Assembly: GCF_029582805.1 (NCBI RefSeq) | Contig: NZ_JAKKUT010000002.1 | Span: forward strand, 1,202,001-1,266,000 | Source of the DNA: Candidatus Synechococcus calcipolaris G9 | Lineage (GTDB): Bacteria > Cyanobacteriota > Cyanobacteriia > Thermosynechococcales > Thermosynechococcaceae | Length of the DNA stretch: 64,000 nucleotides | Direction: 5' to 3' | Part shown: positions 2,269-51,577 of the stretch, in pieces | Layout of the letters: the number at the start of each line of letters is the position of its first letter | Position numbering within the stretch: the stretch's first letter is position 1 | The notes under the pieces: generated by a model | Told to the model about the DNA's origin: nothing | Database searches by the model: none | Seen by the model: the letters and a program-made list of their open reading frames with translations, nothing else | Translations under genes and position numbers: made by a program

Positions 2269-3129
2269 TTAAATTTTTGCAAACCAATCTGTATCGACTT
2301 CCACTGACTCAATTACTGTGATCTTGACACCAAGCCCCAATTCTTTCAAGCGTTGAACTAACTGTTCTCCATCGATCAGATCAATCGGTGGTGCCCCATC
2401 GCGTGTTGCCTCCTTGATCGCATCTCTGGTGAATGTGCCAGTCGTGATCAACAACCCTTTGTCAGTTCGCCCTTGCATGGCTCCACGAAAATCTCGAATT
2501 TGACCTGCCGTTACTGAACCTTGATAACGCTTACATTGAAAAAGAACGTGAAAGCTTAGGAAGCCATTAATCCGAGCAATGCCAACTCCATCAATTCCAC
2601 CGTCACCAGATTTCCCTGTAACTTGAACTTGAATAAATCCGGACTCACGCAGTAGACGTTGTGCCAAACGCTCAAACGCTGATGGCTCAAGAGTTAATAG
2701 CATTTTGTGCAACTGTTGATGCCATGCTAACTCTTCCAAGGTTTCGATGGATTCAACAGTTTCAGTTATTGGGTCTGAAGAAACAACCTTGCCCTTCTCT
2801 GTATCTCGAACAGCTTTAACAATTTCTTTGGCATCCAGGTCGTCAGGATTAAGTGAGGTTGATACTAACGACCATACGCCACGTGCTGAATTTTGCAAAA
2901 GCCCATACTTCTTCAAATAGGTACGGCTCCAGGCAAGACGGTACTCAACTTCACTTTGGGAGGTACTACCATGGGGAATTTCAAGCACCTTATCCGGCAA
3001 ATTAAGAATTTGTGCTACTTTGTCGTAAATCTCCTCAGTCGTCCCAGACCCACCAAGGACTTGCAGAGCCTGAATTGTGGGTATGAGCATTGAATCAAAT
3101 GTTGGGACTGAGGAGGCAGATCGCTTCAT
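2269..3129 (-). CDS. mrr: Mrr-type restriction endonuclease
   Basis: 286 aa. The N-terminal ~85 residues form an Mrr_N winged-helix domain (PTIQALQVLGGSGTTEEIYD, then a helix ending YLKKYGLLQNSARGVWSL). The C-terminal half is the Mrr catalytic domain of the PD-(D/E)xK superfamily: AFERLAQRLLRESGF, then the metal-binding aspartate in GKSGDGGIDGVG and the variant QxK of FQCKRYQGSV; the usual DFRGAMQG and KGLLITTGTFT segments follow. Enzymes of this type cut modified or foreign DNA. It is the first gene of a three-gene minus-strand set with the 80-aa protein and the HNH nuclease. Unlike the neighbours it has almost no HIP1 octamers. Function as methyl-directed restriction is family knowledge, not shown here. 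Confidence 0.88.
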   Translation of the reverse strand: MKRSASSVPTFDSMLIPTIQALQVLGGSGTTEEIYDKVAQILNLPDKVLEIPHGSTSQSEVEYRLAWSRTYLKKYGLLQNSARGVWSLVSTSLNPDDLDAKEIVKAVRDTEKGKVVSSDPITETVESIETLEELAWHQQLHKMLLTLEPSAFERLAQRLLRESGFIQVQVTGKSGDGGIDGVGIARINGFLSFHVLFQCKRYQGSVTAGQIRDFRGAMQGRTDKGLLITTGTFTRDAIKEATRDGAPPIDLIDGEQLVQRLKELGLGVKITVIESVEVDTDWFAKI

Positions 3130-29310: not shown

Positions 29311-30222
29311 TTATTTCTCGTTAATTGATTTTCCCTGAATCCATTCATCAGGAACTCTAGAAATTTTCTCTCTACCCGTGGGTTGGTGCAGAGGTTTACC
29401 CAGGGGGCGCAACTTTAATTCACCCCTTTGAAATTGATTGATCCTCTCTTTGGCAATATCAATATACTGACGTTCACGTTCAATGATCATACCGCGTCGA
29501 TCATGCTTAATTGCAGCAATCAATGTCGAGCCAACGCCACCAAAGGGATCTAGCACCCAGTCCCCTTTATTACTGAAGGCCAATACACATCGTTCAACCA
29601 ACTCCACTGGAAACTGACATGGATGAATCGTTTTCTCGGGATGATTGGATTTTACATTGGGAATATCAATAATGCCTTGACTCCATTCTTCTTCCATGAT
29701 CGCCCAGAAGTCAGATGGATTTTTTCCCAGGGGATTACCACTCGGTTTACCAATATTTTGCCCTTTATAATGGCGTTTACCAGGGTATTTGGCGGGAACA
29801 CGCACTGCATCCAAATTGAAGGTATAGTCTTTTGTTTTAGTAAACCAGAGAAGGACTTCGTACCGCCCAGATAGCCGCTTAGAAGCGTGCAAACCATGAT
29901 TGAAGTGCCAGATAATACGATTGCGTAACTGCATTCCCAGAGACTTAAAAATGGGATAAACATAAATATCAAGGGGAAACACTTCGCCATTTTGTACATA
30001 ATTCCCCACTTGCCAAACAATACTTCCTTGGTTGGAACAGAGACGAACCTGCTCCCTTAGTATGTTTTTCTGCCAATCTAAATATTCATCCAGACCGACG
30101 TGCTTTTCATAGCTTTTGCCAAGATTATAGGGGGGGGATGAAATAATTAACTGAAAAGACGCATTGGGCAACTGTTTTGAGATTTCTAGGGTATCCCCCT
30201 CTGTCATGACGAGATGGGCCAT
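29311..30222 (-). CDS. beta-class DNA amino-methyltransferase (N4-C or N6-A), apparently orphan
   Basis: 303 aa from the ATG at 30222; a GTG at 30258 would add 12 residues. Motif order is that of the beta class: motif IV IISSPPYNLGKSYEKHVGLD near residue 25, the target-recognition middle (IIWHFNHGLHASKRLSGRYE; VRVPAKYPGKRHYKG), then motif X/I at the C-terminus with HPCQFPVELVERCVLAFS and DWVLDPFGGVGSTLIAAIKH. SPPY is most common in N4-cytosine enzymes but some N6-adenine enzymes use it. No restriction endonuclease gene is adjacent, so it looks solitary, perhaps regulatory like the several orphan methyltransferases of cyanobacteria. Immediately upstream lies mobile-element debris. Confidence 0.88.
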   Translation of the reverse strand: MAHLVMTEGDTLEISKQLPNASFQLIISSPPYNLGKSYEKHVGLDEYLDWQKNILREQVRLCSNQGSIVWQVGNYVQNGEVFPLDIYVYPIFKSLGMQLRNRIIWHFNHGLHASKRLSGRYEVLLWFTKTKDYTFNLDAVRVPAKYPGKRHYKGQNIGKPSGNPLGKNPSDFWAIMEEEWSQGIIDIPNVKSNHPEKTIHPCQFPVELVERCVLAFSNKGDWVLDPFGGVGSTLIAAIKHDRRGMIIERERQYIDIAKERINQFQRGELKLRPLGKPLHQPTGREKISRVPDEWIQGKSINEK

Positions 30223-30396
30223 TGATCGATAGGACTGCTCAATACAAAGGGGATTCACCCATGCCTCCCTAGGCTGATTGAGTAAATAACAGAAGGATGA
30301 AATTTGCGTTATACGGAGAGAGAGTCATTGTAAATAGGACTTGAAACAACTTATATGACTGGGTTCACATGGAGGGTGAGTCTTAATGTGCTCACA

Positions 30397-49138: not shown

Positions 49139-49244
49139 CACGTTGTTGGGCTGCTCTACCCTAATTTTTAAGGAGGCAACCTGAAGCTTGTCCGTGGGCT
49201 TCAAGATCAAATCTTTCTAAAGAAAAACCACTAGCAGACATGAC

Positions 49245-50018
49245 TTAGATTGATAGTAGCTCCCTCAAAAAGATCGTCAGATTGTTGAGACTCAAAATAT
49301 GTTGCTCAGTCTGAGTGCTAACCCAAGCATTGTCTGAAATACTTGCTGTGTTTGTTTTACCTGGCTTAAGAATGCTTGCAATCGTTGCAACTGTCGCCTT
49401 TTCTTTGTCAAAAGGCTTCCAGCCAATTTGCTTAACTTCTTCTTCAGAAAATTGAGAAATGTAGGATTTAGCCCTTTCCATGTATGCAGGATAAGCTACT
49501 TCTCCACACGCACAGAGCAATGTATCCAGTACGCCTTGGTCAGAGTTGTTTGGCAGTATATAGATTCCCAACTTTGGCGTAGTTTTCGTTACAGCACCAG
49601 TTTCGCTAATTTCAGATGGAAAGTCAGGAAAATACTCACTCAATCCGTCACAATATTTCTTTGCGACTTCAGCAGGTTTTTGTTTGTCAGCATCAGCTAC
49701 AATTGCAAATGCTGACAAAGAGTTCAAATAATCAATATCAGCCAACTTGTCTTTTAAGTTATCTACTAATCTACTCCCTTCACCCGCATATATAGCTACA
49801 GATAAAGTGTCTGTATATAGAATTGACGGCATATCAAGCCTAAGATACAGCCTTCCTGTTTTCGAAGGATATACAGGAATGAACTTTTGCCACAAAGAAT
49901 CCAGCTTTGATTTATCGTCATTGAATTGGGAAAATCCTAGTAATTCACGTAAGACTTTGCATAGAAAAGCTTGATCATGGTTCCCCTCAACCCCAACTAA
50001 TACACATCTTCGGTTCAC
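49245..50018 (-). CDS. DUF3226-like TOPRIM protein, partner of AAA ATPase
   Basis: 257 aa from a GTG at 50018 whose GTG overlaps the ATPase stop as GTGA; a TTG one codon earlier is possible. The N-terminal strand CVLVGVEGNHDQAFLCKVL has the TOPRIM glutamate, and LSAFAIVADADKQKPAEVAK has the DxD pair; LGIYILPNNSDQGVLDTLLC follows. This fits the DUF3226 class of TOPRIM proteins, which occur next to AAA ATPases. TOPRIM nucleases of OLD-type and PARIS-type systems use these residues for metal-dependent cleavage. AT-rich, no HIP1 sites: probably acquired. Function in defence is inferred from architecture. Confidence 0.8.
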   Translation of the reverse strand: MNRRCVLVGVEGNHDQAFLCKVLRELLGFSQFNDDKSKLDSLWQKFIPVYPSKTGRLYLRLDMPSILYTDTLSVAIYAGEGSRLVDNLKDKLADIDYLNSLSAFAIVADADKQKPAEVAKKYCDGLSEYFPDFPSEISETGAVTKTTPKLGIYILPNNSDQGVLDTLLCACGEVAYPAYMERAKSYISQFSEEEVKQIGWKPFDKEKATVATIASILKPGKTNTASISDNAWVSTQTEQHILSLNNLTIFLRELLSI

Positions 50019-51190
50019 CAACGAACCTCCTGTCCTAATTCCTCACGCAATCGTTTCAATCTATCCCAGTCATGTCTCACTACTCGTGTTTGCATCTCCT
50101 TCGGCTCAAGGCGATAAAGAACTAAATCTGATTCATACTCAGTCACATCCAATAAGGCATCAACAGCTTCAAGACTATGTGTTGTTGCAAAGAGCTGCAC
50201 ATCCATTTCTTTGCACCATTTAACGAGCCAACCGAACGAATTTTGCAATGCTTCAGTATGGATTGTGGATTCAAGCTCATCTATTAAAAAAATTCCTCCT
50301 CTGACACTTGCAAGCTTAAGAGCTATATGCAGTAGGCGACGGACTCCATCACCGAATGTACTGACAGGTGCAAGTCCTAACCTTTCATGTTGAATGTAAA
50401 TGTTAAATCGAGAAGATATAGACTCTGGAGACAAAAGAATTTCTATGTCAGAAATATTATGATCCATCTGACGCAACAGATCTAACACATCAGCTTTAAA
50501 GTTATGAAACCGAGCTTCTGACAGCAGCCGAAACTGTCCAATATCTGAGCGATGAGATGCAGGTGTGACAACTGAAGTAAGTAGGCTAGGTTCTCTTTTC
50601 CCTGTTCTGGAAAAAAACTCATGCTCCCAAAGCTGGTAGTCCTCGATAATATCAGCTTCCTCACTATTAAATAAACTCAACTGTTCAGTGTATAGATCGA
50701 CTCTTAGGTCAATTCCTTTTCTCAATTCGAGGAGATCCTCGCTTTCACCTATCTGCTCGTCCTCAGATTCAGCAAGTTGATCATCTCCAGCAGCTAACCT
50801 TCTCCGCTTTTCAGAGACAAACATACCCTCCATTTCCTCATAAGTCGCTTTCATCTGCTTGACTGCAAATGATCCACTGCCAGAAATAGAGATGGTACCC
50901 GTCTTGAGTTTTTCACTATTCAATAGAAAATCATGTGAAAACAACCATTGAAGTGCATCAAGAGAGGGGGTACGAGATATCCTATACTCTTGCTCCCGTT
51001 GTCTCGCAGTACTTAGCCATACCCTTATATCTAATGGATGGCAATAGATAGATAAAGCCTCAAGAACACTTGTCTTACCTGAGTTGTTGATTCCAACGAG
51101 CAGGTTAATTTGTCCAAGACCTTTTAGTTCTAGATCTCGAATCCCCCTAAACTTATGAATTGCTATGCTTTCCAGGCTTACTGTGCTCAT
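50015..51190 (-). CDS. AAA/SMC-type ATPase of an ATPase-TOPRIM pair
   Basis: 391 aa, ATG at 51190. AAA_15/AAA_21-type ATPase: SIAIHKFRGIRDLELKGLGQ, Walker A INLLVGINNSGKTSVLEAL at ~30-48, a long middle part with acidic coil (DDQLAESEDEQIGESEDLLE), a degenerate signature VSTFGDGVRRLLHIALKLAS, Walker B GIFLIDELESTIHTEAL and switch histidine LFATTHSLEAVDALLDVTE. OLD, RecF and PARIS AriA proteins share this plan. It lies 9 bp after the VOC gene stop and overlaps the TOPRIM gene. Composition differs from flanking metabolic genes. Confidence 0.88.
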   Translation of the reverse strand: MSTVSLESIAIHKFRGIRDLELKGLGQINLLVGINNSGKTSVLEALSIYCHPLDIRVWLSTARQREQEYRISRTPSLDALQWLFSHDFLLNSEKLKTGTISISGSGSFAVKQMKATYEEMEGMFVSEKRRRLAAGDDQLAESEDEQIGESEDLLELRKGIDLRVDLYTEQLSLFNSEEADIIEDYQLWEHEFFSRTGKREPSLLTSVVTPASHRSDIGQFRLLSEARFHNFKADVLDLLRQMDHNISDIEILLSPESISSRFNIYIQHERLGLAPVSTFGDGVRRLLHIALKLASVRGGIFLIDELESTIHTEALQNSFGWLVKWCKEMDVQLFATTHSLEAVDALLDVTEYESDLVLYRLEPKEMQTRVVRHDWDRLKRLREELGQEVRW

Positions 51191-51199
51191 GTGCCTAGT

Positions 51200-51577
51200 T
51201 TAGCCTAAAACGTTGTTAGCCAAGAACGTTAGTTCAATCACATTGCCATCGGGATCCTGAACGAAAAACGCCGCACGGCCCGAGGCACTGGCTTGAATCC
51301 GGTAGCCCGCCGCCGTCAGTTGCTTGCCTATCCCCTCTAAATCATTGACGGCCAAGGCAATATGGGGATTTCGCCCCCATCGTTCCCGCTCCGCCAAAGC
51401 ATTTGAGCATTGATTCGTTTCAATGAGATGGATCTGCACTGGCCCCACCTGATACCACAGTCCCGGAAAACTCAACGGGCGATCGGCTAAAGTCAACCTG
51501 AGAAGATTGCCATAAAATTGGGCAGATCGTTCCAGATCCGTCACATGAATCGCAACATGGAGAACAGCGGAAATCAC
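51200..51577 (-). CDS. VOC (glyoxalase/bleomycin-resistance) family protein
   Basis: 125 aa, GTG start. Single VOC domain: LHVAIHVTDLERSAQFYGNL, LTLADRPLSFPGLWYQVGPV, IHLIETNQC, PHIALAVNDLEGIGKQLTAA and FFVQDPDGNVIELTFLAN, including the metal ligands His, His and Glu of the fold. Such proteins are metal-dependent lyases, dioxygenases or drug-binding proteins. It contains HIP1-like composition and looks native, unlike the ATPase just downstream. Confidence 0.87.
   Translation of the reverse strand: MISAVLHVAIHVTDLERSAQFYGNLLRLTLADRPLSFPGLWYQVGPVQIHLIETNQCSNALAERERWGRNPHIALAVNDLEGIGKQLTAAGYRIQASASGRAAFFVQDPDGNVIELTFLANNVLG

Follow-up and report, generated by a model that had tools for sequence, protein, structure and literature searches.

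Described ATPase–Toprim systems and the pair in the window

To our knowledge, PARIS is the one split pair of an ATPase and a Toprim protein for which both trigger and target have been worked out. Here, a hexamer of AriA holds AriB, a tRNA-cutting Toprim nuclease (available text of PMC12409363), which is freed by a trigger such as Ocr; PARIS requires the two genes as well as the two catalytic sites (available text of PMC9122126). In OLD proteins of class 1, ATPase and Toprim parts belong to one polypeptide; Gabija (OLD class 2) has the single protein GajA with an adjacent GajB helicase, and the retron OLD proteins (class 3, as in retron-Eco8) are single proteins with an adjacent RT and ncRNA. 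The ATPase PtuA of Septu and of retrons is partnered by PtuB, an HNH protein. Finally, in a 2026 survey of BREX, as far as its available text goes, TOPRIM-linked OLD-ABC pairs are a known class whose members serve, once recruited, as backup effectors; the survey cites a 2020 classification of ABC ATPases (PMC12839542).

The 64,000-nucleotide stretch of DNA analyzed here (the window) contains two adjacent genes on its minus strand, A (50015..51190), encoding a 391-residue OLD/SMC-type ABC ATPase of the AAA_21/AAA_15 kind, and B (49245..50018), encoding a 257-residue DUF3226 protein with a Toprim fold, a probable nuclease. The stop codon of A (TGA) and the start codon of B (GTG) overlap in the four nucleotides GTGA (50015..50018), and translational coupling is expected; the longer ORF of B starts at a TTG one codon upstream of the GTG. 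The ORFs thus bear out the layout given in the initial annotation, which had also described the pair as AT-rich and embedded between ordinary genes. Both descriptions hold: the GC content of the pair is 0.406 vs 0.495 for the whole window, with values as low in only ∼0.08% of 1242 sliding windows of equal length, and the flanking genes encode an amidohydrolase-like protein ("nagA-like," for which Pfam gives no match at 1e-3), a glyoxalase-family (VOC) protein, and CpeS. The annotation had further pointed to a lack of HIP1 sites. There are indeed none in the pair, but the 64 kb hold 74 sites, which gives an expectation of just 2.25 for the pair (Poisson probability of none, 0.105), and long stretches without HIP1 are also present elsewhere in the window, so their absence carries little weight and was dropped as a mark of foreign DNA. 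Two weak pairs of inverted repeats were found at the edges of the pair, neither framing A and B together, and an Rfam scan of the window returned tRNA only. AT-rich stretches elsewhere in the window hold genes for an Mrr-type restriction endonuclease (2269-3129, minus strand; Mrr_cat, 1.2e-30) and a DNA methylase (29311-30258, minus strand; N6_N4_Mtase, 1.2e-51).

Families, residues, and predicted folds of A and B

In line with the initial annotation, A scores above the Pfam cut-offs for both AAA_21 (65.9 bits, cut-off 27; 8.1e-18) and AAA_15 (54.8 bits, cut-off 32.1; 1.6e-14). Its best PADLOC family is PDC-M38A (PDLC04608, 2.6e-69, residues 5-390 of 391), followed by AbiLi (a weaker match, at 4.7e-35), AriA, and GajA; AbiLii is absent among the eight families listed for B. 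The protein has a Walker A motif (GINNSGKT), a Walker B DE (304-305), and a TTH motif (336-338). Walker A, D304-E305, and an invariant C-terminal R390 are kept in alignments of 19 diverse and 35 closer sequences, and H338 is invariant in the former and replaced by glutamine in one (L105) of the latter. Among solved ATPases, a profile of A reaches PtuA at 2.7e-16, OLD at 2.3e-13, GajA at 2.3e-6, and AriA at 2.4e-6, and the predicted model (pLDDT 80.4) is matched by the heads of Rad50, SMC, and PtuA. By profile, no solved ATPase comes closer than PtuA, which also ranks with the best matches in fold, but the partner in the window is a Toprim protein and not PtuB.

Gene B matches DUF3226 (105.3 bits, cut-off 27; 5e-30); DUF4435 is absent at E ≤ 1, and the other Pfam match, BLIP, is at noise level. 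Across 23 sequences representing several cyanobacterial DUF3226 types, residues E11, G12, D109, D111, P156, N158, G162, L164, K207, and P219 are invariant, and E11, D109, and D111 are also invariant in 33 closer sequences, that is, B has the conserved Glu and DxD of the Toprim nuclease fold. Alignment shows that the subfamily to which the window copy belongs has an N-terminal insert that is missing from short DUF3226 proteins. The predicted model (pLDDT 89.9) is best matched by 2p62 (PH0156 of Pyrococcus horikoshii; Z = 15.5, rmsd 3.5, 221 residues aligned), which is also the sole match above noise when a B profile is run against solved chains (2.7e-7); the structure is titled as a hypothetical protein, and a literature text search found no paper naming PH0156. 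Against the Toprim domains of OLD proteins the model gives Z values of 8.2-9.4 (for 6nk8, Z = 9.4, rmsd 4.6, 172 aligned), vs 7.5 or less for unrelated GTPases, consistent with an OLD-Toprim-like fold. AriA and AriB are absent among the 50 structural matches listed for each model, which excludes nothing. Taken together, residues and model suggest that B is probably a nuclease.

How does the pair compare with the described systems? According to the available text of PMC9122126, a PARIS ATPase passes AAA_15 (32 bits) or AAA_21 (27 bits), as A does with 54.8 and 65.9 bits, and the two are also alike in having an adjacent Toprim protein and in the profile match between A and AriA. The PARIS partner, however, is defined by DUF4435 (PF14491, 27 bits), whereas B belongs to DUF3226, a difference that the initial annotation had recognized; AriB is also missing from the solved chains that the B profile reaches at E ≤ 1. 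Membership in PARIS was rejected because B lacks DUF4435. With class 1 OLD proteins, GajA, and the OLD protein of retron-Eco8, the pair has in common an OLD-type ATPase head and an OLD-like Toprim fold, but the two parts are split between two ORFs, there is no GajB beside them, and neither an RT nor an ncRNA is nearby.

The HMM search that the annotation had proposed led to a closer counterpart, PDC-M38 of PADLOC-DB 2.0.0, where PDC stands for "phage defence candidate" (available text of PMC11514479). Gene B matches PDC-M38B models alone, the best being PDLC04614 (5.6e-17, partial). Because A and the adjacent B both match PDC-M38 (B partially, and by E-value rather than by PADLOC's cut-offs), the pair type is already listed, with candidate status only. 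Other DUF3226 pairs match PDC-M38 strongly, with B down to 3.7e-76; the match of the window B is weak, and at 1e-8 there is no match to PDC-M38B for a Verrucomicrobia member of its subfamily (L123). In addition, NCBI annotation already names DUF3226 partners on plasmids; a literature text search, with most subscription papers outside its scope, found no paper naming DUF3226 or PDC-M38. The idea of an undescribed variant finds no support in view of the PADLOC listing, the NCBI names, and the BREX survey (available text of PMC12839542), while the proposal of a candidate anti-phage pair survives: it is an OLD/PARIS-like ATPase-Toprim pair, it is mobile, and it is sometimes found beside defence genes. 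The present analysis adds evidence for its mobility and fold, for the obligate pairing, and for embedding in BREX.

Pairing, patchy distribution, and transfer

In cyanobacterial genomes, an ATPase ORF lies directly upstream of DUF3226 in 39 of 40 loci, the exception (L082) being at a contig edge, and in a second set, drawn from named genomes and limited to B's own subfamily, 48 of 49 loci have the ATPase beside B, the exception (L127) being a contig that begins inside B. Every DUF3226 locus in the two sets with enough contig thus has an adjacent ATPase. The 4-nt overlap (GTGA or ATGA) is found in 32 of 44 related loci checked, and A and B distances are correlated (rho = 0.67 over 32 loci, a value reached by 0 of 2000 permutations). 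Hormoscilla sp. GUM202 has three tandem ATPase copies before one B gene (L104:4280-8001).

The distribution of the pair is patchy. In the phylum, 68 of 386 sampled genomes and 36 of 139 genera have DUF3226, and, outside cyanobacteria, B's subfamily is found in Sorangium, a Chloroflexaceae MAG, a verrucomicrobial MAG, Candidatus Hatepunaea (Electryoneota), and a Desulfobacterales genome. Among 58 relatives, A is present in 3 and B in 7 (own genome included, 3 of them only weakly); within the same family, B is present in 2 of 29 genomes. This pattern bears on the possibility that the pair is a DNA-repair accessory, with a RecF-like ATPase and a RecR-like Toprim protein acting at breaks or replication forks. 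Sequence and fold do link A to the RecF, Rad50, and SMC families, but the RecF score of A (TIGR00611) is 43.1 bits against a cut-off of 172, and B keeps the Toprim acidic residues, as in OLD nucleases, while RecR is a non-nuclease scaffold. Given also the patchiness, the horizontal transfer, and the presence or absence within a single genus described below, we consider a repair role improbable. Neither outcome that the initial annotation had named as arguing against a defence role, clear assignment to a known housekeeping ATPase or conservation as a core gene pair in all relatives, was observed.

Comparison with a genome of a different family (G036) provides evidence of transfer: identity between the two genomes is 93% for A and 80-90% for B, vs 69% for PurE, 67% for an ABC transporter, 60% for the nagA-like protein, and 54% for the VOC protein. 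The DNA similarity to four other genomes stops at window position 51208 or 51209, 18-19 nt before the start of A, and at the opposite end it stops between 49145 and 49339; the approximate transferred unit, as delimited by similarity to the pair in Pegethrix (L083), is 49145..51209 on the minus strand. The pair is patchy in distribution and has been horizontally transferred as a unit of ∼2 kb. In G036, the near-identical pair (L062:5737-9131) has its B gene split by ∼2.6 kb with transposase ORFs (DDE_Tnp_1, ISL3).

The 19 nt upstream of A (51191..51209, minus strand), common to unrelated genomes, contain a -10-like hexamer, TAAACT, six nucleotides before the ATG of A. Of 42 related loci, 14 have such a hexamer beginning 12 nt ahead of the ATG, compared with at most 5 for any other position, a count that is suggestive only, since the loci are related. 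Upstream of A, a scan with the sigma-70 promoter consensus came up empty, so the idea of a -10-only promoter comes from the hexamer data; these are suggestive of a leaderless promoter from which transcription might start at the ATG itself.

Because the nagA-like and VOC genes that flank the pair lie apart in other genomes of its own family, which therefore offers no clean empty site, we turned to Dolichospermum. A 6-kb region (L053) served as the reference for 16 genomes of the genus, its own included, compared by DNA similarity, a measure by which a diverged pair could escape notice. In 7 of the 16 genomes the pair adjoins a DUF4336 gene, and in the three of these that were mapped (G190, G424, G109) a BrnT/BrnA-like pair or its remnant lies on the other side of A and B. 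In G425, most of B has been lost, with a transposase-like ORF in its place (an identity read from the ORF, which has no Pfam match), and most of A is kept. Four genomes (G430, G196, G427, G117) retain both flanks without the pair, which in G427 is present at another place; three (G146, G428, G429) keep the left gene alone, and one (G168) gives short matches only. The empty site in G430 has BrnT (6.5e-22) and a type IIG restriction gene (Eco57I, 6.4e-27). The pair thus comes and goes at one Dolichospermum site, beside a BrnT toxin gene and a type IIG restriction gene.

Defence, viral, and plasmid contexts and the proposed mode of action

A defence context is seen at the Verrucomicrobia locus L123, where the gene order is BrxC, PDC-M28A/B/C, A, B, PglX, HEC-01A, and HEC-01B; this is a BREX-type locus with a pair of B's subfamily inside. 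Downstream of PglX, HEC-01A and HEC-01B form a second pair of an ATPase and a small partner (L123:13862-15699). In the Desulfobacterales genome (L129), a NACHT-TPR protein is encoded downstream of the pair, and the neighbours in L124 have no PADLOC match. We also compared 105 neighbours at 20 loci of mixed DUF3226 types with 105 of 137 listed control proteins from the same contigs. The PADLOC families matched by at least one member at 1e-10 number 86 vs 19, a difference that we do not count as enrichment, since the counts are of families rather than proteins and a few proteins match many models. Most neighbours at the 20 loci look ordinary and those in the window are housekeeping genes, which counts against an immune module.

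On viral contigs with a relative of A, 15 of 29 have a B-profile match directly downstream, mostly a distant one; the A relatives are mostly 21-31% identical to A, and in some of these pairs the ATPase is 744-752 aa long. Several (L214-L217, L222, L223, L225, L237) have an ATPase of 730-752 aa with a long extra N-terminal part, followed in most cases by a Toprim-like protein of 283-296 aa, and the end of one IMG/VR contig classed as viral (L210:8001-8159) carries a fragment that shares 81% identity with the window ATPase. A sequence search with the window's B in viral contigs, plasmids, and phages returned nothing, as did searches with three distant viral-contig B proteins in phages (one also in plasmids). 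A type-1 DUF3226 protein, by comparison, matched 9 plasmid records, and in 4 of 4 plasmids examined an ATPase gene adjoins DUF3226: a 6.4-kb mobilizable ColE10 plasmid, an Acinetobacter plasmid with BrnA/BrnT next to the pair, a Plesiomonas plasmid with the pair near phage tail genes, and a 9.7-kb Acinetobacter plasmid. Carriage by phages and plasmids therefore rests on more distant relatives, not on B's own sequence subfamily.

Plasmid carriage bears on two further explanations. If the pair's target were plasmids, or mobile DNA of another kind, instead of phages, the pair would have a precedent in Wadjet, an anti-plasmid system with a related Toprim protein and an ABC ATPase (available text of the review PMC10568477), and in the window the pair is indeed chromosomal; distant pairs, however, are themselves carried on plasmids and viral contigs, and we regard this target as unlikely. 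The pair could also be a selfish, toxin-antitoxin-like stability module in which B is toxic, A is the antidote, and loss kills the cell. The coupling of the genes, their mobility, the distant pairs on small plasmids, and the nearby BrnT/BrnA genes in Dolichospermum and on one Acinetobacter plasmid all fit, but at six loci (L110, L118, L125, L126, L129, L130) B is broken with A intact or both are broken, as for a dispensable system, and in PARIS deletion of either gene is non-toxic (available text of PMC9122126). Addiction is an improbable primary role, albeit one that is not mutually exclusive with defence.

We give a probability of roughly 0.6 to the reading that A and B are a split OLD-type immunity module that moves between genomes. 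It is supported by the pairing, the catalytic residues, the predicted fold of B, transfer, gain and loss, the BREX locus, and the carriage of more distant pairs on viral contigs and small plasmids. By analogy with PARIS, Gabija, and OLD, from which we infer complex formation, sensing, nuclease activity, abortive infection, and anti-phage activity, A would keep B inactive and sense infection; B would then be released or activated and might cut tRNA, other RNA, or DNA, leading to growth halt or death of the infected cell. An immune role is likely rather than certain, given that the OLD-family ATPase-nuclease Cran1 of archaea has a cell-cycle role and no detected antiviral effect (available text of PMC12796447). 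That A and B form a housekeeping or cell-cycle nickase of this kind is nevertheless very doubtful: Cran1 consists of one fused protein and is refractory to deletion, whereas the pair is split, patchy, and often broken.

Somewhat short of an even bet, in our estimate, is the more specific proposal that DUF3226 pairs form a separate split-OLD immunity class, spread over many cyanobacterial genera and at least five other phyla, with distant relatives on viral contigs and small proteobacterial plasmids and with a trigger and a nucleic-acid target of its own, distinct from those of AriB, the cyanobacterial version being a ∼2-kb cassette that brings its own minimal promoter, with transcription beginning at the ATG. 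Candidate immune modules of the split ATPase-Toprim kind are widespread, and the compact, obligately paired, and often transferred DUF3226 version offers a second case in which to ask how the ATPase senses infection and what the Toprim protein targets. Presence and absence in Dolichospermum provide naturally matched strains of bloom-forming bacteria for which phage ecology matters. Beside the pair's site in this genus there is also a ∼93-nt repeat (L053:7221-7313) that recurs many times across Dolichospermum genomes.
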